Shown: one piece after another, positions 3,286 to 14,538 of the stretch
How positions within the stretch are numbered: the first letter of the stretch is position 1
How the letters are laid out: the number at the start of each line of letters is the position of its first letter
IMG/VR virus record: IMGVR_UViG_3300034105_000436
Span: 1 to 20,109 of that record
Strand: one strand, 5' to 3'
Source of the DNA: a virus
Length of the DNA stretch: 20,109 nucleotides
Notes under the pieces: model-generated
Seen by the model: only the letters and a program-made list of their open reading frames with translations
What the model was told of the DNA's origin: nothing
Databases searched by the model: none
Made by a program: the position numbers and the translations under genes

Positions 3286-3794
3286 TGTCTGCATTAATTC
3301 ATCATCCACCTACAATTATTAACGCCTATCTAGCAGAAAAAATAAATCCTGGGTTTAGTGGTCAAGGAACAACATATTTTTTCCCAACTCTTCCAACAGA
3401 AATTGATGCACTAACTGAAACATTTCCACAAAGCAATGGGGTATTTGGGGTATACGACAGAATGTTTAAGATGAGAAGAACCCCATTCCCATACATTAAA
3501 TGTGAGCAACTTCTATACTATTTTTATTCAGTAGGTGATGACGCACAAAAGAATATGGTCATAACCCAGCAGCAGGTAAGTGACCTTCTGGATAATGGAG
3601 ATGACTCAGCAAAAGATTTAAATGAATGGGCAGCAGAAAATCCTACATCCTGGAACCTAGAATCCAAGCCAATGTTCTTCCATAACTTTAAGATCTACCA
3701 ACTAGAAGAAACCAGAGATATAGTTGACTTTGGAACAGCCCGTACCTATGCGGGGAATAAAATCATCATAGACTATGATTGGCATGCTAATTAA
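3285..3794 (+). CDS. Probable tail terminator protein
   Basis: This 169-residue protein stands immediately before the tail tube gene, the usual place of the tail terminator (SPP1 gp17/lambda gpU type), which caps the growing tube and joins it to the neck. The N-terminus (HHPPTIINAYLAEKI) looks like the first helix of that fold and is followed by a charged, Tyr- and Phe-rich core (CEQLLYYFYSVGDD). The C-terminal part has beta strands (FFHNFKIYQLEETRDIVDFG) and ends in IIIDYDWHAN. The start overlaps the previous stop (TAATG) and has AGGAG about 10 bases upstream. The stop codon lies inside the left arm of an 11-bp inverted repeat (3783-3825). Confidence in the exact role is moderate. Confidence 0.55.
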   Translation: MSALIHHPPTIINAYLAEKINPGFSGQGTTYFFPTLPTEIDALTETFPQSNGVFGVYDRMFKMRRTPFPYIKCEQLLYYFYSVGDDAQKNMVITQQQVSDLLDNGDDSAKDLNEWAAENPTSWNLESKPMFFHNFKIYQLEETRDIVDFGTARTYAGNKIIIDYDWHAN

Positions 3795-3825
3795 TTTATA
3801 ATAAAGAGGTAGTATAATTAGCATG
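3783..3825 (+). repeat. 11-bp perfect inverted repeat over stop codon and -10 box
   Basis: CATGCTAATTA at 3783-3793 is the exact reverse complement of TAATTAGCATG at 3815-3825, with 21 bases between. The left arm contains most of the end of the upstream gene (stop at 3792-3794); the right arm shares bases with the TATAAT at 3813-3818. It could be an operator for the tail tube promoter or an RNA hairpin. No T-tract follows, so it does not look like a terminator. Confidence 0.6.
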
Positions 3826-3866
3826 AGGAAACAACCCCCTTCCAATAAAATGAAAGAGGTGAAAAT
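3797..3866 (+). promoter_or_regulatory. Promoter-like region and ribosome site of the tail tube gene
   Basis: Two TATAAT hexamers occur at 3797-3802 and 3813-3818; neither has a convincing -35 box. From the second, transcription would begin near 3825 and give a leader of about 42 bases. A Shine-Dalgarno sequence AAAGAGGTGA lies at 3853-3862, four bases before the ATG at 3867. The 72-base gap is wide for this compact region, which supports a control site here. Confidence 0.5.
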
Positions 3867-4526
3867 ATGGCATACAGCCGTGGTTCAAGTAGTAACATCA
3901 TCGTAGGTGCAGCAGCACTATTTACGCATGATTCAGGCCCAATCGGATATGTAGACGCAACAGGAGCGATCACTGATACACAAGCAAGCACTGATCTTCC
4001 AGCACTTACAGCATCCACAACATCCTATAAGGAAACTTTGTCACTTGACGAAGATTACACAAATATAGGATACACATCAAATGGTTTGGAACTCGCATTC
4101 CAGCCAGACTTTGGTGATGTAGCAGTAGATCAACTTCTCGACGTTGCTCGTTTATTCAAGCAGGGTATGACAGTTAATCTAAATACATCTTTTGCAGAAG
4201 CAACACTAGAAAATCTTCTAGTAGCAATTGCATCAAATGAGGAAATCGCAACAGCATCCAACCTATCGACACTAAGAATGTCAGCAGGAGATATTGGTGA
4301 CGTTCCACTAGAGCGTGGTATTGTAGCAGTAGGACCAGGATCTGGTTCAGCAGCGATCAACAAGGAAAGAATCTATGTAGCATACCGTGCACTATCAATT
4401 GAGAATGTGACAGTATCTGCAAAGCGTGACGAGGCTTCAATGTTTGAAGTTTCATTCCGTCTTCTTCCAAACGACAATGCGTCATACGGTAAGATCGTAG
4501 ACCGCACACTAGCAACAGCAGTATAA
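3867..4526 (+). CDS. Major tail tube protein
   Basis: The 219-residue protein most likely polymerises into the non-contractile tail tube through which DNA passes. It has the size and character of siphovirus major tail proteins: Ala-, Ser-, Thr- and Val-rich, beta-strand pattern (YTSNGLELAFQPDFGDVAVD), a helix (LLDVARLFKQG) and late strands (VSAKRDEASMFEVSFRLLPN). It is followed at a normal distance by two tail assembly chaperones and the tape measure, the classic order. No sheath gene is present, so the tail is of the long flexible type. All five lysines are AAG and most arginines are CGT or CGC, as in the capsid gene, consistent with a protein needed in many copies. Its unit is bounded by a promoter region upstream and a strong terminator at 4545-4578. 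Confidence 0.8.
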   Translation: MAYSRGSSSNIIVGAAALFTHDSGPIGYVDATGAITDTQASTDLPALTASTTSYKETLSLDEDYTNIGYTSNGLELAFQPDFGDVAVDQLLDVARLFKQGMTVNLNTSFAEATLENLLVAIASNEEIATASNLSTLRMSAGDIGDVPLERGIVAVGPGSGSAAINKERIYVAYRALSIENVTVSAKRDEASMFEVSFRLLPNDNASYGKIVDRTLATAV

Positions 4527-4592: not shown

Positions 4593-5273
4593 ATGGCAAC
4601 AAAAATATATGAAACAAAAAAAATATCACTAGTAGATGATAGAGTTATTATTGCTGCCCCATTAAAAATAAAATACTTAAGAGAATTTTTAGAAACCTTT
4701 GAAAAAATTAAAGAAGCAAAAAGTGATGATGAATCAATATCTATTTTGGCTCAATGCGCTCTTATTGCAATGCAACAATATTGCCCATCAATTAAAACTA
4801 TTGAAGATTTAGAAGACAGCCTAGACTTACCAACTATCTATGATGTTATTGATGTTGCAGCGGGAATCAAAATTAATGAGAAGTCAGAAGACACTGTTAA
4901 AAATCAGGCAGTTGACAGTGGATCAACATGGGAAACCTTAGACTTGGCAAAACTAGAGTCAGAGGTTTTTTTGATCGGTATATGGAAAGACTATGATCAG
5001 TTAGAATCATCAATGTCTATGCAAGAACTAACAGCCACACTAAAGATAAAAAGAGAATTAGACTACAGTGATAAAAAGTTTGCTGCAGCAATGCAAGGTG
5101 TAGATTTAGATAAAAATTCTGGTAGCGGTAATGAATGGGAAGACATGAAGGCTAGAGTATTTAGCAAGGGTGCAACAGGAAATGGAAATGATATTCTGGC
5201 CCTACAAGGAGTAAATGCTGAAAGAGCAGGGTTTGGCATTGGCATGGGTATTGATTATGAGGTTTCCGAATAG
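4593..5273 (+). CDS. Tail assembly chaperone, long form (G-T fusion type)
   Basis: This 226-residue protein should bind the tape measure and recruit tube subunits. Residues 1-94 align with the whole of the short chaperone encoded at 5329-5652: shared PLKI, FE, C..IAM.QY.P, LDLPT.Y and GIK in the same order. Residues 112-226 are a second domain with TWETLDLAKLESEVFLIG, SMSMQELTATL, a basic-acidic linker (FAAAMQGVDLDKN) and the C-terminus GFGIGMGIDYE, resembling the T part of actinophage G-T proteins, normally made by ribosomal frameshift. Here it is continuous in one frame. The ATG at 4593 is chosen because the upstream TTG at 4563 lies in the terminator stem and a -10 box stands seven bases before the ATG. 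Lysine codons are 16 AAA to 5 AAG, unlike the short paralog. A T TTT TTG heptamer lies at 4967-4973. Confidence 0.8.
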   Translation: MATKIYETKKISLVDDRVIIAAPLKIKYLREFLETFEKIKEAKSDDESISILAQCALIAMQQYCPSIKTIEDLEDSLDLPTIYDVIDVAAGIKINEKSEDTVKNQAVDSGSTWETLDLAKLESEVFLIGIWKDYDQLESSMSMQELTATLKIKRELDYSDKKFAAAMQGVDLDKNSGSGNEWEDMKARVFSKGATGNGNDILALQGVNAERAGFGIGMGIDYEVSE

Positions 5274-5328: not shown

Positions 5329-5652
5329 ATGGCAATCGCCACTGAAGAAAAGACAGTAACTCTGATCGATGGAACAAAGATCAAGGTAAGACCACTTAAG
5401 ATTTCTCTACTTCGTCCGTTTATGAAGAAGTTTGAAGACATTGCAAAGGTCGCAGAAGATAACGAAAAGTCTATGGATTTGTTAATGGACTGTGTTCAAA
5501 TCGCAATGAAACAATACAAGCCAGAATTGGCAGAAGACAAGGAAGCCCTAGAAGAAAATCTAGATCTTCCAACAGTATACAAGATTGTCGAAGAGGCATC
5601 AGGAATTAAACTTTCTGACGCATCACTACTTGGCAACCTTGCAAATAACTAA
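5329..5652 (+). CDS. Tail assembly chaperone, short form (G type)
   Basis: This 107-residue protein corresponds to the G-type chaperone that coats the tape measure during tail building. It is a paralog of residues 1-94 of the gene at 4593-5273, and ends shortly after the shared GIK motif. It consists of an N-terminal beta hairpin (VTLIDGTKIKVRPL) and helices (LLRPFMKKFEDIAKVAE; SMDLLMDCVQIAMKQY). Lysine codons are 11 AAG to 2 AAA, as in the capsid and tube genes, and it has the strongest ribosome site of the two chaperones. Together these suggest that it is made in excess over the long form, as G normally exceeds G-T. No slippery site is visible near its end, and no T reading frame follows before the tape measure, so it does not appear to be extended by frameshift. 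The next gene starts 18 bases downstream. Confidence 0.8.
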   Translation: MAIATEEKTVTLIDGTKIKVRPLKISLLRPFMKKFEDIAKVAEDNEKSMDLLMDCVQIAMKQYKPELAEDKEALEENLDLPTVYKIVEEASGIKLSDASLLGNLANN

Positions 5653-5670: not shown

Positions 5671-8600
5671 ATGGCTGATGTAGAATCCAATATTCATGTA
5701 AATATTGATACGTCTGATGCTTTAGCAAGTCTAAAACTTCTACAACGTCAAATATCAGCCTTCCATACACAAATGGCAAAGTCTGGTACCGCAGCCTCAG
5801 CGGTAGCAGCAAATCAAGCACAGAACTTGATGAACAGCATAAATGCTACTGGAAAATTCCAAGCATCTATGCGAACAGTAACATCAAGTACAGAGTCTTT
5901 TACTAATGCTTTAGAAAGAAACAAGTTAACATCTAGAGAATATTTTAGATATACTGGAGCAGCAACAAAAACTTTTGGAAGACTGTTTAGATCTGAATTT
6001 GAAACATTAAATAAAGTTGCACGAGAGCGTGTAAAAGATATACAGACCCAGTATGTAAAAATGGGCAGAGGTGCCAATGGAGCACTACAAGCAATTGCGG
6101 TAAGACCTCTAACGCTTGATATGAAAAATCTGGGCACACAAACAGCCATTGCTGCACAGAGACAACAACTACTTAATCAATTATTAAGACAAGGATCAAC
6201 CAATCTCCTAAACTTTGGTAAGAATACTCAGTGGGCAGGACGTCAGTTAATGGTTGGTTTTACTGTTCCACTTGCAATGCTTGGTACAGTTGCTTCAAAA
6301 ACATTCATGAAACTTGAAGAGCAGGCAATTAGATTTAAGCGTGTGTATGGAGAAATGTTTACAACACAAGCAGAAACTGATGCAATGGTTAAGCAAATTC
6401 AAAAACTTGCAACAGAATATACTAAGTATGGCGTTGCAATAGAAGACACAATGAAAATGGCTGCAGATGCTGCAGCAATGGGCAAGATGGGTGCAGAATT
6501 AGTTGCACAAGTTGTACAGGCAACAAGGCTTGCAGTTCTTGGCGGAGTAGAACAAACGCAGGCATTAGAGACAACAATTTCTGTAACTAACGCTTTTGGC
6601 GTTGCAGCAGAAGATCTTGCAAACAAAATTGATTTCCTTAACGCAGTTGAAAACCAAACTGTAGTATCTATTGAAGATTTAACAATAGCAATTCCAAAGG
6701 CTGGACCAGTTGTTAAGCAACTTGGTGGAAACGTTGAAGACTTAGCATTTTTCCTTACAGCAATGAAAGAAGGTGGAATCAATGCATCCGAAGGCGCTAA
6801 CGCACTTAAGTCTGGTCTTGCATCATTAATTAATCCATCAACAAAGGCAAGCAAGTTTCTTGGAGAACTTGGCGTAAATATTAAAGGAATTGTTGAAGCC
6901 AACCAAGGAGACATTAAAGCAACTGTTGTTGGGTTCGCACAAGCACTTGATACTCTTGACCCACTTAACCGTGCTCGTGCTATTGAACAACTATTTGGTA
7001 AGTTCCAGTTTTCAAGACTTTCCACACTGTTTCAAAACGTAACAACCCAGGGTACACAAGCACAGAGAGTCTTATCATTAACAAAAGCAACTACAGAAGA
7101 ACTTGCAATCTTGTCACAACGAGAATTGGATAAAATTCAGAATACAACAACATACAAATTTAAAAAATCAATGGAAGATTTAAAATTGGCTATTGCTCCA
7201 GTAGGAGAACAATTCTTAAAAGCATTAACCCCTATTGTTGAGTTTGTTGGGAAAATTCTTGACAAGTTTAATAACTTAGGAGATGGTACTAAAAAATTCT
7301 TAACTATTCTTACAGTTGCTCTTGCTGGTGTTGGACCAGTTCTTTTAATGGGATTTGGTTTGATTGCAAACGCTGTTGCTAATATAATTAAAATGTTTGC
7401 AGGATTAAAATCTATGTACAACAGAACGGGTCAATCAAGTCAAATATTAGGAGAGCAGACAAACTATTTAACTAAAGAACAGTTAGAGGCATCAGCAGTT
7501 GCAGCATCACTTGATCAAGTTCATCAAAGATTAAGACAAACCTTTACTTCTGAAACAGCAGCAGTTAACATGTTGGCAAATGCATACAGAAGAGCCATTG
7601 CAGCACAAATAGGATTTACGGGTCCCAGTGCTGGAAAGCGCTTGCCTACACCTAAAAAATATGGTAAAGGAACAACAAGCGTTCCAGGAACTGGAAATAA
7701 AGATAGCGTAAACGCAGACCTAACTCCTGGTGAAGCAGTAATCCCTCAACAATCAGCACAGGATCCAGCAAATAGACCAGCCATTGCACACATGGTTGCA
7801 GGCGGAAGAGTTCAAGGATTAGCATTTGCTCCTGAAGTAGCAGCAACAACAGATGCTAAATCAGTTGCAATTAATGAAACACACGTAGGCGGACGCAGCG
7901 AGCCAAGACTAATATCAGACATTATTAAGAGCAATCCTAATATGTCTCCCGATCAAAAGTTAAAACTTATAACTATGGAACAGGTTCTAATATCACAAGG
8001 TTTGCCACCAGTAACAACAACAAAGCACAGTCTTATGTTCAACTTCCCTGAGTGGATGAATAAAGCAATGCCTAGCCTAACTGGTGGAGTACCTAAGCAA
8101 CAGTTTATAGATGAATGGATTAAGGGTGGAGCAGGCAAATGGTCTCCATCTGGAATGTCTGCAGTACAGGCACAAGCGCTAGATAATGCATTCTTAAAGT
8201 CAATTCAAGAATCTAAAAGCCCATTTATAAATGATTCAATAGTTGACAATTTATATAAGAAAGAAATTCCAAAAATAATAAGTCCAAACGACCCAGGCTA
8301 TGTAAAATCTCAAGGACTGTATGCAACAGACTATAGATTTAATATGGGTAAGGGATTAGGAACTACACCTGATGAAAGTAGAAAAATTCTTGATGAGGCA
8401 AAAAGACAAGGTTTAATCTTAGACTACAGCATTGATGAAAGAGTTAATAGTAAAAAAAGAGTAGTAACTGGATCATCAACTATAACTCTTCCAGCAGGCA
8501 CATACCATGGAGTTCAAGTTCCAGAAGGAACCGTAGTTAATATGAACAGACTTGGAGCAGGAACAACCCCTGTAATTTCTCAAGGCACAAAGGCAGCAAA

Positions 8601-11600
8601 GAAAGCAAAGGTTGCAGCACCGCCATCAGCCCCACAATTGCTTGATCTTGAAAAAGCAATGGAGCACAAAGAAAAACTAAGAGCAGTTGCAATAGAGGCA
8701 TCTCAAACTGCCTTTGGAGCAAAGAAGCCTACAAACTTTGGTGTTCAAGAAACACAGAGTTCTGGTAGAAGTAATTTTATGTCAACCATTGGCGGAGTAT
8801 TTACAAAACCAGATGGGTCAAAAGTATTTGTAAAACCAATGCTAAGTGAGTTAGACGCTATAGCAGAAAAAAGAGGAACTGAGATTGCTAGAGCACAGGG
8901 CTTACTAGCACCAAGACAAACAATCAAAACAATGATTGATCCTACAGATATTGATGAACCAGATGTTAAGAAAAAAAGAAAGATTATTGTTTTGGAATCT
9001 CCATATGATTCAAGATTTGATCCAAACACAATGCCAAAAACTTTTACTGAAAAAGAATATATTAAGCAATTAGTAGCATCAAGCCTTCGTGGAGACAAAG
9101 ATCTTAAGAAAGGCAACCTTGGAGGCAATGTTGTAACTGATGTTGGAGCAGCAGGAGTATTTGATAAAGCCTCTGGAACAAGATCTTATTCAGCAGGACT
9201 TCCATCTATGGAAGCAATTGCTATGCACAATCTTAAAGGTGTTTCAGGTCCAAATGCCAACAACTCTCCTTTCTGGTTTGGAAATGCCACTGCTGATATT
9301 CCACAAAATATTCAGTCTGCAGATGAATATGAAAGAAAAATAAAAGATGAGATTAATAGAACTCTTCCAAAATTAAGAAAAACTATAGATGGTTTTAAAC
9401 TTGATGCTGGAGATCCAGCCAAAAAAGTTTATGAAGATATGTATAAGAGACTTCAGGCTGGTTTAAACGCAGACTGGAAAAAGGTTTATAACTTCCATCG
9501 TTCAATTTTGGTAAAGCCAGATGAAGTACTTGAAGACAAAAAGGGTAACCTAAAGCCAATACCAACAAAGCCAAATAACGGAAAGTTAAAATCAGACTCT
9601 GGCAGCATAAAGGATACAAGACTTGCTCCAGCGAGTGTTGCTTCATCGGTTCGTCAAGGCCCCAAGGGAAGAATTGTTGGAAAAGCAAATGCCCCAGGAT
9701 CAAAGAATGCAACTGTAAACGCAATTCTTGCGGGAGTAAAAGGATCTGTTGCAAAAGCCAAGGCTGCTGGTGCCACTATTGGAAAAACAATATCTCAATC
9801 CGCAGCAGCATCATCAAGGACTGCTTTGTATGGAACGGGATCAATAGATGCAGATGCTAAATCTTTACGTAGACAAATGGAAAAGCGCCAAAGGGCAGAA
9901 GCAAAAACACAAGCAAAGACGGCAGCATCAAGAACTAAACTATACGGCATGGGGCCAATGGATGCAGATGCCAAGTCTATGCGTAGACAAATGGAAAGAA
10001 GAACTAAGTTAGCAAACTCTGTAGCATATCAAAAAAGAATTATTAGTGAAAGAGCAGCAGCACAGTTTACACCAGCACCTTCAGTTTCTGGAACGCCAAT
10101 GGGACCTTCAATGGCAAATGGTAAATTTGAAACCACTAAATTGCAAAGACTTAAAAATAATAGACAAAATGCAAAAGTAGCAGGTAAGGGTGGTATGGGA
10201 ATTGCTGGCGGTGTCGGAATGGCAGCAGGTGCAGCAATGATTGGTTCTATGGTACCAGGTAAAGTTGGAGAAATCTCACAAAAATTAATGATGCCACTTA
10301 TGGGATTGTCTATGATAATTCCAATGTTAAAAAGTCCTGCTTCAGCCTTAGCAGTAGGACTTCTTGCAACAGTTGGATCATTTGCTGCCTTGAGAATGTC
10401 ATTTGATAAAGCAGCAGATCAGGTTTTAGAAGAGGGTGAAAAGTTTAAAGGATCTACATCTGCATTACAGACTATAGCAAAATTTGGTGGTAAGACAACA
10501 GCCTCAGAACAGATGGACCTAAGAAGAAAAAATTCTTTTGCAATGCTTGGCGCAGCAACTGGTAAGACTACTTATGGAGAAGCATATGCTCAAACAGCAG
10601 AAGGAAAGGCTTTGACTGCAAGAATTTCAAAACAGAACGCTGACGGTAAAGGAAATGTTGCAGTGAAAGATTTAGGTGGCCAACTTTCTGCAGCAATTAT
10701 GTCTGGTGCTATGGATATGTCACAGGCAAAAAGTTTGGCTATGAATGCTGCTAGACAAGCAGGAGATATGTCTATTGGTATAAAGGTTATTGCTCAATTA
10801 GAAAGTTTGCTTGGACCAAACGGAGAAAACCTTGTTAACGATCCATTAAATGTTAGAATAAATATGGTAAATGCAAATGCAAAGAATATGAAAACTAGTG
10901 CTGATAATGTAAAAAATGCTGGTGTTTTACAACAACTTGCTGGACAAAAAGTAACACAAGGACTAGGCATAGGCGCTTCGGCTCTTGGTGGAGCAGCAGC
11001 AGGTGCTGGAATTGGAACAGCACTAGGACCTGCAGGAACTCTAGCAGGAGCAATTATAGGTGCTGGAATTGGAACAGCAGTAGGAGCAATTGGTGGATAC
11101 TTTGCCTCAAAGAAATATGCAAAAGAGGCAGCAGTTCTTGGAGCAACCTATGCGGTAGATGCTAAAATTGCAATGGAACAAAATAAACAAATGCTTGACT
11201 CTCTTGATATGTATTATCAGAAAAAAATTGAAGAGTTAAGGCTGCAGGGTAAAATTAATGAGGCGTTAGAACTAGAGAAAGAGTATTTAGGAGATAAAGA
11301 AAAAGGCAAAGTTGGAAAAAGAGATCAACTAACTGCAGCCCAAGCAAAAATGCAAGGAGACATAGTATCTCAATACAATAGTGCTGGTGGACTTCAAGAA
11401 GCAATGATGTCTGGAATGAAAAAAGCCACAACTGCAAAATACAAAAATGATCCTAACCAGTTAGCATATATAGATACTGTAAATCAGCAATCAAAAAATC
11501 TAAGAAAAGATGGTCTTATCGATAGTGGACAAGAGTTTTTAATTCAAGCAAAGATGGCAAGTGGAGATATTCCTCCAGCAGTATTCAGAAGTCTTTTGCA

Positions 11601-14538
11601 AATGGCAACAGACAATAAAGACATGGCCCCAGTGATGATGAAAATTATTACAAAGTTTAGTGGTGCAACATCTGAGTCAATAGGTGTAGCAGCACAGAAT
11701 ATTCTTGATGCAAAGGGTACCATTAACAAGACAGTTCAAACAAAATTTATAACCAGGGTAGAAGCATTTGAAAAAGACTCAGATGCTCTTGATTTTACAA
11801 AAAATATAATTAAGTTAAACAGTCTCAATACAGTTATCCCATCAGATGTTATGGTCAGTTACTATACTGACAAAAGCAAGGAAAGCCAAGAGGCATACGC
11901 ATCATTAAATAAAATGCTAGACGCAATTGAAGGTAGCAAAGATTTAACTGCAAAAATTGTTTATGAGATTATGCCAGAGGTTAAGGGAACAGCAGCATTT
12001 GATGAAGCATACTTTAACACATTAACTGAAGATCAGCAAAAGGTTTATACAACTACAATTTCAACATTAGTTAATATTCCAGAGCCAAAAATTGAAGCAA
12101 GCGAAGACTATAAGGCGTGGCTTAAGGAGCCTGCACCAAGAGGTGGACAAGGAGTAACAGGAAGTCTTTCTTATAAAATACAAAAATACACAGAAGCCCA
12201 AGGATACAAAGCCGTTACAGATAACTTATCAGTAGGAGTAAAGGCTCCAGTAGGAGGAAACACTCCTGCCGATGGAAACAAAGTCCAGTCCTCACCACTA
12301 GATGACTTAGTAAAGAAACTAAGAGATGTACGAATGAACCAGATCAAGGTCACAGAAGGCTGGGGTGCTTCTCGTAAGGCACTAGATAAACTGTTTGGTG
12401 GTAACAAAACTATTGATGTATTTAGCGGTATAGAAAATGATCTAAGAGGCTTAGGTACAAGCCAAGACTTTATCGAACTAATCGTTGGCATGGATCCAAA
12501 GGTATATGAACAGAAAAAGAACTCATTGTTTAAGTTTGACAACAAGAAAAATATTGTTGGACTAAAAGAAGATGCTAAAAACATTCAGGAAGCATTAAAC
12601 TCAATAACTATGGGTGACTGGAAGTCTAGCATGGAAGCAGACTTCAAGGCTATTGAAAATCAATCAACTGCATTTAATAAGTTGGCAAACCTTGGAGTTC
12701 CAGTAGCAGAGGCATACCAATTAATTTCTGATAAAACTTTGGCAGCAGCCATTGCCAATGGAGTAAATGATAAAAGCCTTAGAACTTTGATTTCTAACTA
12801 TAAACTTTTAACTGCAGCACAAGAAAAGTCAGCGGCAATTCAAGGAGTAAAAACAGATATCGCACAATTTAAGAAAAACACAATTCAAGAAGCAAGACTA
12901 AGATCAAAGTATGGGGCAGAAGATGCTTTTGCAATTTCATCCGATGAAAACCTACAATCAATGGAAAGCCAAATTGCTTCACAACAATCGAGATTAAATA
13001 AGTTAATAGCAAACGGAGCACCAACAGCAATTATTGTTAAAGCCCAGGGAGAGTTAAATGATTTAATTGACGATTTTACTGAAAGGCTAAATCAATTAAA
13101 GTCTACCGTTGAATTCATGCAAGGCTTATTTGATAAAGGTTTTAGCAATGCTATGCAGGCCTTTGATGTTCAGGAGACAGCCCTAAATATACAATTTAAA
13201 ATAGATACAAAATCACAAAATGCAGTAATTAAAGAGGCACAAAATGCAATTGCAGCAATTCAATATGAAATAGATGACAAAGAAGCAGCACTAAAGGGTA
13301 TTGAAGAGCAAGAACAAAAAATTAATGATAAGTATGATGAAAGAATTAAGGCTTTAGATGAAGTAGAAAAGTTAAACTCTTCTATTTCTAATCAGCAAAA
13401 GGGTCAACTAACTCTTGCTGAGGCCCTAACCTCTGGAGATATTTCAGCAGCAGCAAAGGCCGTACAGGATATGAGAGCCCAAGCAGCAGCAGATGCAGTA
13501 ACAAAACAAAAAGATGCTGTAGAGAAATCTAGAGAATATGAATTGTCTAGAGTAAAAACTCAGGGTGGAAAAACTAGACTAGAACTTGAAAAAGAAATCA
13601 AAGATCTTCAAGATAAAATATTTAAAATTGAAGAAGAGAAACTAGAACCAGCACAAGAGTTTATTCGTTTAAGACAAATAATATTAGACAAAGATATAGA
13701 AGGACTTACGGTTCTTGGCAAAACAAAAGATGCTTGGGAAGCAATTAAAAATCAAGTAGACCTTGCATTAATTAAGAGTGCTGCATTTGTTGATTCTATG
13801 AAACTTGCACTAGAGACTCAAGCAAAACTTATTGCAGCATATCAGGCTCAACCAGGGAATACTTCAAGCAACTCTGGTACAACTGCAACACAAGGTCCAG
13901 GTCCATTTGTTCCAGATCCAAAAGCATCAACTGAAGGAAATAAAAAAGCAGAAGATATTAATAAAGCAGCATTAGAAAAGGCTGCAGATTATGCACCTGC
14001 TATTGCAGCAGCAGCATTTCACCCAAGCGCTAATGCAGCAATGGAAAATGGAATAATCGGGGCCCTGTCTATTGCATCACAAATAAAAGCAGCAGCAATT
14101 GCTGCAGCAGAAGCAATTAGTGTACAAAATCAAGCATCTAATCTTTCTAGATTTAAGGCAAAAGAAGCAGCAGATCTAGCAGCAGAGCAAGCAGCAATAA
14201 ATGCTAAGGGCAGAGTAGGAAGAATGAATGGTGGAATAATTCCTAAAATGTTCTCTCTTGGTGGATTTGCTAAAGGCACAGATACAGTTCCAGCAATGTT
14301 AACTCCAGGAGAATTTATAATGAGTAAGTATGCTGTAGATACTTATGGCGTAGATACTATGAGAAAAATAAATAATGGCGAATCAGTTGGTGGAGCAGTG
14401 TATAATAATACATATACATTAACTGTTAATGCAAAAACAAATGCTAATCCAAATGAAATTGCACAAGCAGTAATGTCAACAATTAAACAAGTTGATGATA
14501 GAAGAATTAGAGGGGTGTCATTAAATGCCAGAAATTGA
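5671..14538 (+). CDS. Tape measure protein (giant, 2955 residues) with embedded kinase-like region
   Basis: This protein sets tail length and is ejected ahead of the DNA. Order of parts: N-terminal helices (1-180); a phage tail tape-measure core (about 185-480; NTQWAGRQLMVGF, then LKSGLASLINPS near 379 and LFGKFQFSRL near 442); a hydrophobic stretch (about 543-578); a first TPGE motif (685-688); an unrecognised region (730-955); a kinase-like region (about 1010-1280); a duplicated 25-residue motif (1382-1444); hydrophobic Gly/Ala segments (1508-1576 and 1764-1815), possibly membrane-inserting; a long helical part; coiled coils (about 2425-2680) with LTLAEALTSGDISAAAKAV; and a C-terminal GTDTVPAMLTPGE motif (2878-2881). 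No lytic enzyme motif was seen. By the rule of about 0.15 nm per residue, the upper limit of tail length is near 440 nm. Ribosome site AAAGAGGTG at 5655-5663. The next gene overlaps by 14 bases. Confidence 0.95.
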   Translation: MADVESNIHVNIDTSDALASLKLLQRQISAFHTQMAKSGTAASAVAANQAQNLMNSINATGKFQASMRTVTSSTESFTNALERNKLTSREYFRYTGAATKTFGRLFRSEFETLNKVARERVKDIQTQYVKMGRGANGALQAIAVRPLTLDMKNLGTQTAIAAQRQQLLNQLLRQGSTNLLNFGKNTQWAGRQLMVGFTVPLAMLGTVASKTFMKLEEQAIRFKRVYGEMFTTQAETDAMVKQIQKLATEYTKYGVAIEDTMKMAADAAAMGKMGAELVAQVVQATRLAVLGGVEQTQALETTISVTNAFGVAAEDLANKIDFLNAVENQTVVSIEDLTIAIPKAGPVVKQLGGNVEDLAFFLTAMKEGGINASEGANALKSGLASLINPSTKASKFLGELGVNIKGIVEANQGDIKATVVGFAQALDTLDPLNRARAIEQLFGKFQFSRLSTLFQNVTTQGTQAQRVLSLTKATTEELAILSQRELDKIQNTTTYKFKKSMEDLKLAIAPVGEQFLKALTPIVEFVGKILDKFNNLGDGTKKFLTILTVALAGVGPVLLMGFGLIANAVANIIKMFAGLKSMYNRTGQSSQILGEQTNYLTKEQLEASAVAASLDQVHQRLRQTFTSETAAVNMLANAYRRAIAAQIGFTGPSAGKRLPTPKKYGKGTTSVPGTGNKDSVNADLTPGEAVIPQQSAQDPANRPAIAHMVAGGRVQGLAFAPEVAATTDAKSVAINETHVGGRSEPRLISDIIKSNPNMSPDQKLKLITMEQVLISQGLPPVTTTKHSLMFNFPEWMNKAMPSLTGGVPKQQFIDEWIKGGAGKWSPSGMSAVQAQALDNAFLKSIQESKSPFINDSIVDNLYKKEIPKIISPNDPGYVKSQGLYATDYRFNMGKGLGTTPDESRKILDEAKRQGLILDYSIDERVNSKKRVVTGSSTITLPAGTYHGVQVPEGTVVNMNRLGAGTTPVISQGTKAAKKAKVAAPPSAPQLLDLEKAMEHKEKLRAVAIEASQTAFGAKKPTNFGVQETQSSGRSNFMSTIGGVFTKPDGSKVFVKPMLSELDAIAEKRGTEIARAQGLLAPRQTIKTMIDPTDIDEPDVKKKRKIIVLESPYDSRFDPNTMPKTFTEKEYIKQLVASSLRGDKDLKKGNLGGNVVTDVGAAGVFDKASGTRSYSAGLPSMEAIAMHNLKGVSGPNANNSPFWFGNATADIPQNIQSADEYERKIKDEINRTLPKLRKTIDGFKLDAGDPAKKVYEDMYKRLQAGLNADWKKVYNFHRSILVKPDEVLEDKKGNLKPIPTKPNNGKLKSDSGSIKDTRLAPASVASSVRQGPKGRIVGKANAPGSKNATVNAILAGVKGSVAKAKAAGATIGKTISQSAAASSRTALYGTGSIDADAKSLRRQMEKRQRAEAKTQAKTAASRTKLYGMGPMDADAKSMRRQMERRTKLANSVAYQKRIISERAAAQFTPAPSVSGTPMGPSMANGKFETTKLQRLKNNRQNAKVAGKGGMGIAGGVGMAAGAAMIGSMVPGKVGEISQKLMMPLMGLSMIIPMLKSPASALAVGLLATVGSFAALRMSFDKAADQVLEEGEKFKGSTSALQTIAKFGGKTTASEQMDLRRKNSFAMLGAATGKTTYGEAYAQTAEGKALTARISKQNADGKGNVAVKDLGGQLSAAIMSGAMDMSQAKSLAMNAARQAGDMSIGIKVIAQLESLLGPNGENLVNDPLNVRINMVNANAKNMKTSADNVKNAGVLQQLAGQKVTQGLGIGASALGGAAAGAGIGTALGPAGTLAGAIIGAGIGTAVGAIGGYFASKKYAKEAAVLGATYAVDAKIAMEQNKQMLDSLDMYYQKKIEELRLQGKINEALELEKEYLGDKEKGKVGKRDQLTAAQAKMQGDIVSQYNSAGGLQEAMMSGMKKATTAKYKNDPNQLAYIDTVNQQSKNLRKDGLIDSGQEFLIQAKMASGDIPPAVFRSLLQMATDNKDMAPVMMKIITKFSGATSESIGVAAQNILDAKGTINKTVQTKFITRVEAFEKDSDALDFTKNIIKLNSLNTVIPSDVMVSYYTDKSKESQEAYASLNKMLDAIEGSKDLTAKIVYEIMPEVKGTAAFDEAYFNTLTEDQQKVYTTTISTLVNIPEPKIEASEDYKAWLKEPAPRGGQGVTGSLSYKIQKYTEAQGYKAVTDNLSVGVKAPVGGNTPADGNKVQSSPLDDLVKKLRDVRMNQIKVTEGWGASRKALDKLFGGNKTIDVFSGIENDLRGLGTSQDFIELIVGMDPKVYEQKKNSLFKFDNKKNIVGLKEDAKNIQEALNSITMGDWKSSMEADFKAIENQSTAFNKLANLGVPVAEAYQLISDKTLAAAIANGVNDKSLRTLISNYKLLTAAQEKSAAIQGVKTDIAQFKKNTIQEARLRSKYGAEDAFAISSDENLQSMESQIASQQSRLNKLIANGAPTAIIVKAQGELNDLIDDFTERLNQLKSTVEFMQGLFDKGFSNAMQAFDVQETALNIQFKIDTKSQNAVIKEAQNAIAAIQYEIDDKEAALKGIEEQEQKINDKYDERIKALDEVEKLNSSISNQQKGQLTLAEALTSGDISAAAKAVQDMRAQAAADAVTKQKDAVEKSREYELSRVKTQGGKTRLELEKEIKDLQDKIFKIEEEKLEPAQEFIRLRQIILDKDIEGLTVLGKTKDAWEAIKNQVDLALIKSAAFVDSMKLALETQAKLIAAYQAQPGNTSSNSGTTATQGPGPFVPDPKASTEGNKKAEDINKAALEKAADYAPAIAAAAFHPSANAAMENGIIGALSIASQIKAAAIAAAEAISVQNQASNLSRFKAKEAADLAAEQAAINAKGRVGRMNGGIIPKMFSLGGFAKGTDTVPAMLTPGEFIMSKYAVDTYGVDTMRKINNGESVGGAVYNNTYTLTVNAKTNANPNEIAQAVMSTIKQVDDRRIRGVSLNARN
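8698..9510 (+). other. Kinase-like domain inside the tape measure (residues about 1010-1280)
   Basis: The segment has the landmarks of a kinase-like fold in order: a strand-turn-strand with Gly (GGVFTKPDGSKVFVKP, 1041-1056) holding candidate ATP-binding Lys1055; a helix with Glu1071 (EKRGTEIARAQGL) that could pair with it; a hinge-like strand KIIVLESPYD (from 1104); a helix followed by GDKDLKKGNLGGNVV, where D1144-L-K-K-G-N1149 has the D-x4-N spacing of a catalytic loop; and VFDKASG with Asp1165 as the possible metal-binding Asp. A helical C-lobe (about 1218-1280) follows. The layout resembles the PI3/4-kinase or HipA-like branch at least as much as Ser/Thr kinases. This is pattern reading without a profile search. 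Confidence 0.45.
9814..10002 (+). repeat. Duplicated 25-residue motif in the tape measure
   Basis: Residues 1382-1406 and 1420-1444 (bases 9814-9888 and 9928-10002) are two copies of a basic motif, SRT.LYG.G..DADAKS.RR followed by QME(K/R)R, with 19 of 25 positions identical and a period of 38 residues (114 bases). The DNA copies have diverged at synonymous sites, so the duplication is not very recent. Confidence 0.85.
11001..11079 (+). repeat. 22-base direct repeat in a glycine-zipper segment
   Basis: An identical 22-base sequence beginning AGGTGCTGGAATTGG occurs at 11001-11022 and 11058-11079, 57 bases (19 residues) apart. It encodes GAGIGTA twice inside a Gly/Ala-rich segment (residues about 1764-1815) that reads like a glycine zipper, a type of helix pair common in membrane-inserting proteins. 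Confidence 0.8.

Follow-up and report, generated by a model that had tools for sequence, protein, structure and literature searches.

A predicted kinase-like domain carried as a cassette in the tape measure protein of an actinophage-like virus

The tape measure protein (TMP) encoded on a 20,109-nucleotide stretch of viral DNA (IMG/VR record IMGVR_UViG_3300034105_000436, positions 1 to 20,109; referred to as the window) raised the question of whether a kinase rides in the middle of this virion protein and, if so, where such an enzyme should act. A sequence-only reading had placed a kinase-like fold at positions 8698-9510 (aa 1010-1280; residue n starts at 5671+3(n-1)) and considered a delivered effector, a function during assembly, or a dead fold used as structure. 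The list of open reading frames agrees with the placement, as the TMP is encoded by one continuous ORF with the candidate domain in its middle. Its features are listed below; fractions refer to 82 distinct homologous cores, the selection of which is described further on.

5671-14538, + strand: TMP, uninterrupted ORF of 2955 aa; PhageMin_Tail (PF10145, 1.5e-24, aa 244-443) and phrog_10030 (tail length tape measure, 4.6e-100)
5671-7590, + strand: N-terminal region (aa 1-640), common to the TMPs of about 2100 aa of Streptomyces phages and to many uncultured phages
7591-7821, + strand: Gly-rich segment (aa 641-717) with an LTPGE motif at aa ~685, where the variable region begins; from motif positions and direct reading of the sequence
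7873-8595, + strand: separate upstream module (aa ~735-975), present in 27 of the 70 distinct ORFs that bear the kinase
8728-9570, + strand: predicted kinase-like domain (aa ~1020-1300); from the model, structure matches, and conservation
8740-8805, + strand: strands 1 and 2 with the glycine-containing loop between them (aa 1024-1045); G1032, S1034, and G1042 invariant
8833-8835, + strand: K1055, strand-3 lysine (FVKP), 82/82
8866-8868, + strand: E1066, alpha-C glutamate, 81/82
8980-9009, + strand: hinge strand KIIVLESPYD (aa 1104-1113); E1109, 82/82
9100-9117, + strand: catalytic loop D1144-LKKG-N1149, both residues 82/82
9139-9147, + strand: D1157-V-G1159, D-x-G motif, putative metal binding, 82/82
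9208-9501, + strand: helical C-lobe (aa 1180-1277); helices 201-208, 215-219, 223-227, 238-262, 270-287, and 290-298 in the numbering of the modelled query

The ORF was assigned as a TMP by its PhageMin_Tail region, its great length, and its place ahead of minor tail genes within a run of tail genes. The virion structural genes of the window comprise a capsid-type gene (phrog_1623, virion structural protein), then head-tail genes, a gene for an Ig-domain protein in the position of the major tail protein, a pair of ORFs in that of the tail chaperones, and the genes for the TMP and a minor tail protein, an order which is that of four annotated Streptomyces phages (Stanwilliamsviridae). The TMP N-terminus (aa 1-640) is matched by 636 phage records, the best of which are Streptomyces phages with about 30% identity. 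Because the N-terminal matches and the gene order resemble Streptomyces phages, we infer an actinobacterial host and regard the virus as an uncultured, actinophage-like siphovirus. The two ORFs preceding the TMP gene (4593-5270 and 5329-5649, both on the + strand), named tail chaperones from their position only, each match phrog_10504. In the first one, phrog_10474 is matched as well and in the same frame, which gives the appearance of two tail-chaperone parts joined with no frameshift between them; the second one resembles a duplicate of the first part (phrog_10504) of its neighbour.

For structure prediction, a query of 331 residues (979 is to be added for TMP numbering) was placed first in an alignment of 44 sequences, which was obtained from 47 domain references by leaving out L031, identical to the window, two truncated entries (L085 and L087), and L088. 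AlphaFold2 modelled the region from about 1020 to 1300 as a two-lobed kinase-like domain (pLDDT 85.7, pTM 0.82) consisting of a beta N-lobe with one helix, a hinge, and a helical C-lobe. In query numbering, strands 46-50, 63-66, and 72-77 precede a helix (81-96), two further strands (105-110 and 125-132), a second helix (148-161), the catalytic loop (163-170), a very short hairpin (171-172/175-176), D178-x-G180, and the C-terminal helices. The order of the modelled elements, beta1-2-3, alphaC, beta4-5, hinge, helix, catalytic loop, short hairpin, D-x-G, and helical lobe, is that of kinases. Several details proposed from the sequence alone reappear in the model: K1055 is located in a strand (72-77) following the Gly-rich turn, KIIVLESPYD is the hinge-like strand (125-132), D1144-L-K-K-G-N1149 is placed after a helix (148-161), and a helical lobe comes after the catalytic motifs.

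Comparisons of the model with known structures by VIA-align gave Z scores of 11.1 for CotH (rmsd 4.6, 232 residues aligned), 10.7 for CtkA (4.2, 202), 9.9 for PI4KIIalpha (4.8, 218), 9.2 for HipA (5.2, 216), and 9.0 for a Golgi casein kinase of the Fam20 type (5.2, 211). According to the note accompanying the tool, a best Z of 7 to 8 is typical when Foldseek gives no clear match. Among the matches listed, all 50 PDB rows belong to kinase-fold families, including the lipid kinase VPS34; this count contains LepB and entries titled 'MDT protein', which we take to be kinase-fold families. The comparison with PI3/4-kinase, HipA, and protein kinase folds that had been proposed as a check returned kinase-fold neighbours. 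The top Z scores lie within about 2 Z, so they do not allow assignment to one kinase family. Foldseek alone was weaker, its best PDB E-value being 6.5e-3. In BFVD, six matches reached E <= 1e-3; two of them are named ADP-ribosyltransferase, one carries the name PI3/4-kinase and one HK97 portal protein, and the names of the remaining two are uninformative. These matches suggest that kinase-like domains may ride on other virion proteins as well. With a confident two-lobed model, a VIA-align list of kinase-fold families, and the strict residue conservation described below, the proposal of a kinase-like fold embedded in the TMP has held, and we consider the predicted fold almost certain.

Sequence and profile searches gave a different result. 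Library searches of the TMP (Pfam, PHROG, PDB sequences) revealed no match that names the domain, and the PDB sequence searches yielded nothing relevant and no kinase. Searching Pfam with 44 members at E <= 1 produced weak, scattered matches, with no kinase, no HipA (PF07804), and no CotH kinase (PF08757) among them, and family searches of the window for HipA_2 (PF20613) and PI3_PI4_kinase (PF00454) gave no match at E <= 10. A profile-profile match of the HHpred kind to known families, also proposed as a check, was not obtained: hhalign probabilities were 0.14% and 0.40% for two HipA sets, 0.55% for a HipA_2 set, and under 1% for gp16 of the haloarchaeal virus HSTV-2, none of them significant and the HipA and HipA_2 values alike to that of the TMP N-terminus used as a control (0.29%). 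In the best local alignment to HipA_2, and in that to one of the HipA sets, K1055 faces the kinase Lys and E1066 the kinase Glu; the other HipA set and gp16 yielded unrelated alignments. A pattern scan of genome contigs gave 65 matches, none a relative. In cultured phages, tblastn found a single match with P0001 (E 6) and nine records with L068 (E 6-10). With L105, eight Achromobacter records were hit in or beside the virion RNA polymerase (E 0.9-2), which a profile search of one region did not confirm, and FrayBell gp102 and gp103, considered as candidate carriers, showed no match.

Relatives were found in viral contigs. Scans starting from the domain of the window detected them at best-segment identities from 100% down to 43%, all within long ORFs; one of these scans revealed 197 loci with a relative, 79 of which were used. 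All 154 loci from L031 to L184 carry one domain copy in an ORF of at least 1130 aa, where the loci overlap between scans, many come from the same contigs, and 70 distinct domain strings are represented. The TMP N-terminus is also present in 53 of 54 distinct domain-bearing ORFs above 2500 aa, the exception (L096) beginning at a contig edge. When ten longer records were searched whole, nine contained a single copy of the domain and the record of L222 contained none.

For an analysis of conservation, 89 strings were collapsed to 82 distinct homologous cores. K1055, D1144, N1149, D1157, and G1159 are invariant in all of them, E1066 is replaced once (by Q), and the spacing from K to E (11), D to N (5), and N to D (8) is fixed in 82 of 82. 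By sequence position only, a strand-3 Lys is combined with a helix-C Glu, and D-x4-N with a later D-x-G; placed in this way, E1066 and D1157 sit at the positions of the kinase alpha-C Glu and of the DFG-type Asp. The sequence-only reading had given these roles to Glu1071 and Asp1165. Both vary freely among homologues, with E in just 19 and D in just 34 of 82 cores, and E1066 and D1157 take their places, whereas K1055, D1144, and N1149, which it had also named, do not vary at all. Part of the observed conservation was selected for, since the two scans supplying most homologues used patterns containing KVFVKPM and D-x-D-L..GN and therefore parts of the motif. Sixteen cores were found only through the TMP N-terminus; K1055, D1144, N1149, D1157, and G1159 are present in all 16 and E1066 in 15. 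Together, D1157 and G1159 are reminiscent of the D-x-G in PI3/4K-like proteins, and HSTV-2 gp16 has IDSGG. The distance from N to D, 8 residues, is shorter than in gp16 (13) and HipA (18), and metal binding may therefore differ. We consider it likely that the domain is an active enzyme.

Substitution rates were compared between the window and six relatives. Against five diverged ones (dS 0.74-1.26), dN/dS of the kinase region was 0.09, 0.10, 0.10, 0.15, and 0.30, and that of the TMP N-terminus 0.06-0.10. In four of the six comparisons, the kinase values (0.09-0.15) are below those of the next linker (0.21-0.37); in three of these four (0.09-0.10) they are near the N-terminal value, and in the comparison with L044 they are 0.150 for the kinase and 0.055 for the N-terminus. 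For L050 (dS 1.26), the kinase value of 0.30 stands against 0.34 in the linker. In the near-identical L034, kinase and linker reach 0.18 and 0.16, and the N-terminus 0.01. These ratios show the coding sequence of the domain to be under purifying selection. Between the window and L034, nucleotide differences are locally in excess at aa ~1110-1260, the C-terminal half of the kinase, with nearly identical flanks; this cluster suggests an allele exchange through recombination.

Is the domain a regular part of these TMPs? A scan with the TMP N-terminus alone gave at least 574 relatives (at least 600 stretches). Among the best 80 loci, the ORF is closed in 51, 13 of which carry the domain, and cut by the contig end in 29, five of which carry it; the closed ORF of one locus, 1179 aa long, is possibly broken. 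Closed ORFs have a median length of 2793 aa with and 2195 aa without the domain. L221 and L217 share 91% identity as far as residue 1268, where a single block of about 345 residues, holding the domain at 1279-1586, follows in L221 only, and L217 runs directly into the matching GIGNVLKG/IIGNVLKG sequence. According to BLAST, L194 differs from L222, which lacks the domain, by residues 1307-1636 (domain at 1311-1622) between sides of 57% and 47% identity, and residues 1232-1571 of L199 face 12 residues in L201, a case in which fine alignment blurs the exact ends. The domain is absent from five of five Streptomyces phage TMPs, and among ORFs with an intact N-terminus its start varies from aa ~724 to ~1547. 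A tree of N-terminal regions started from 116 candidates; in 112 of them the N-terminus was long enough, and 106 were distinct. The tree requires six gains or losses of the domain, five of them forced by well-supported branches and either direction being possible; it was made by a quick method and carries a long-branch warning concerning L066. An ORF of at least 2000 aa was demanded of rows lacking the domain, and one of more than 2500 aa of rows from the kinase-selected set, and for this reason group sizes in the tree are not frequencies. The alignments show the domain present or absent as a block within otherwise collinear TMPs, and we read it as a self-contained, dispensable cassette of about 330 residues.

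Other modules are found in the same protein family. The upstream module of the window (aa ~735-975) was modelled with a pLDDT of 81.4, and a fold search gave no clear match (best Z 4.8; best BFVD E 0.076). At the same place, upstream of the kinase, L100 has a cytidylyltransferase-like domain (3719-4105, TMP aa ~729-857; PF01467, 2e-9, above the cut-off), and the module of the window differs from it. TMPs of L260 and L265, which share the N-terminal family and have no kinase, contain a LysM domain, and that of L265 also CHAP. For aa ~920-1150 of the L144 TMP, a resemblance by eye to what we take to be an ADP-ribosyltransferase-like motif was dismissed, as no library supports it.

Gain and loss as a block in related phages, together with the kept active-site residues, make the domain look like host-directed cargo. 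Fusion to a TMP and variable presence are both seen; entry into the host would have to join them in a virion-delivered effector domain. Our favoured explanation, held with moderate confidence, is a predicted catalytically intact kinase cassette of an atypical type (PI3/4K, HipA, CotH, Fam20) that would enter the host before the DNA does. A tail tube lumen is unlikely to admit a folded domain of about 300 residues, and delivery would therefore need unfolding. The TMP would be loaded in the tail tube with the kinase domain extended or unfolded and be ejected before the phage DNA; the domain might then fold at or inside the host membrane and, at an early stage of infection, phosphorylate a protein or lipid of the host, or modify it otherwise using ATP, which could aid takeover or blunt defence. 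In other systems, TMPs are described as being ejected and inserting in the membrane, and TMP-like effectors as carrying enzymatic domains (PMC11126660, PMC13277306).

The motif order, on which the kinase proposal originally relied, is by itself no better than chance, since the loose K/E/D-x4-N/D pattern is fitted by 5 of the 7 D-x4-N sites of the TMP and five or more such sites occurred in 103 of 500 shuffles. What raises the domain above chance is the conservation in homologues with fixed spacing and the predicted fold. A chance motif in an unrelated alpha/beta domain would also be in line with the lack of a significant sequence profile match, but the confident two-lobed model with its kinase-fold VIA-align list and the exact conservation and spacing in 82 cores make it extremely improbable. 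In favour of a catalytically dead kinase fold, serving as a structural or ruler element, are the role of the carrier protein in setting tail length through its own length and the greater length of domain-bearing closed ORFs. Dead kinase folds usually lose the catalytic K, D, N, D, and G residues, yet these are invariant here; since, in addition, the whole block is missing in collinear relatives, this explanation is disfavoured and appears very unlikely.

An intact catalytic set also fits an active kinase whose work is done in the cell that produces the virions, while tails are assembled or late in infection; its target might be a tail chaperone, the TMP itself, or a host protein, for instance, and delivery would be incidental. 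A precedent would be the HipA-family kinase gene located between the portal and capsid genes of 'Gratiaviridae', for which a late action against superinfection was suggested (PMC8008677). Collinear relatives have TMPs without the domain, so that assembly does not generally require it; moreover, a separate late gene would do, yet the domain is inside a long ORF in 154 of 154 loci and occurs as one copy only in the nine longer records containing it. We regard such a role as unlikely. Kinase folds performing other chemistry exist, and the fold could phosphorylate membrane lipids, as PI4K does, or transfer AMP or another group to a protein. The lipid kinases PI4KIIalpha and VPS34 among the fold neighbours, the action of TMPs at the membrane, and the unusual N-to-D spacing would fit; no feature separating lipid from protein kinases was seen, though, and in VIA-align the scores of the protein kinases CotH and CtkA equal or exceed those of the lipid kinases, which leaves this variant rather improbable. 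Among the three earlier readings, the delivered effector fits best, and we consider it reasonably probable.

A broader idea is offered with reserve: the TMPs of a broad group of uncultured, actinophage-like siphoviruses might be modular delivery chassis, in which the region past the N-terminal part takes folded enzyme cassettes that would reach the host before the phage DNA. Such cassettes would include a family of kinase fold that Pfam lacks, a cytidylyltransferase-like domain in some cases, and other modules, and the kinase could perhaps be among the earliest phage enzymes to act. An active kinase entering with the TMP would work before any phage gene expression, at the time when injection-targeting defences operate; one of these, SNIPE, is reported to associate with tape measure proteins (PMC13190303). 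TMP pairs differing by one cassette make the delivery idea directly testable.

Virion-associated kinases, enzyme fusions, and TMP-related effectors of contractile injection systems are already known; a kinase-fold domain inside a phage TMP was not found reported among the top-ranked matches in open-licence papers. The best structural neighbours, CotH kinase and Fam20-type atypical kinases, differ by having no sequence match and another carrier. HipA (PF07804) and HipA_2 (PF20613) are likewise two-lobed, with Lys, Glu, D-x4-N, and a later Asp in identical order, but differ in N-to-D spacing, in the absence of a significant profile match, and in that the TMP domain is embedded. HSTV-2 gp16 (L192:10647-12119; PF00454, 1.5e-5, just under the Pfam cut-off), whose gene lies amid those for head and tail proteins, has a domain of kinase type too, and a 490-aa HSTV-2 protein in BFVD, gp16 by its length, matches the model of the window (E 2.6e-3). 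It differs from the TMP domain in its location between head and tail genes outside the TMP, its spacing, and its non-significant profile match. In the gut phages 'Gratiaviridae', the HipA-like kinase of the structural gene cluster is a separate gene, between portal and capsid (PMC8008677). The Tox-Peptide Kinase of PVC-type systems is a kinase-type domain assigned to phage-tail-like delivery as well, but is of the lantibiotic-synthetase type and not a TMP domain (PMC3482391).

Enzymatic domains on virion or injected proteins are also known from MuF/portal head-packaged effector fusions and from polyvalent proteins, which include a distinct protein-kinase group having lost the C-terminal subdomain; their carriers are head, portal, or large injected proteins, and the term 'tape measure' is absent from the main texts (PMC9503650, PMC5512222). 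If the kinase is active and delivered, the carriers of phage-injected enzymes would extend from head and portal proteins to the TMP. Tme and Sle1 of contractile injection systems likewise consist of a TMP-like chassis and a functional domain, which in Tme is an endonuclease and in Sle1 can be exchanged; there the domain is C-terminal, the machines are bacterial and not infectious phages, and no kinase is described in the accessible parts (PMC11126660, PMC13277306). Delivery of an active kinase would reveal natural cargo insertion sites in phage TMPs, in parallel to the TMP-related effectors of bacterial injection systems.
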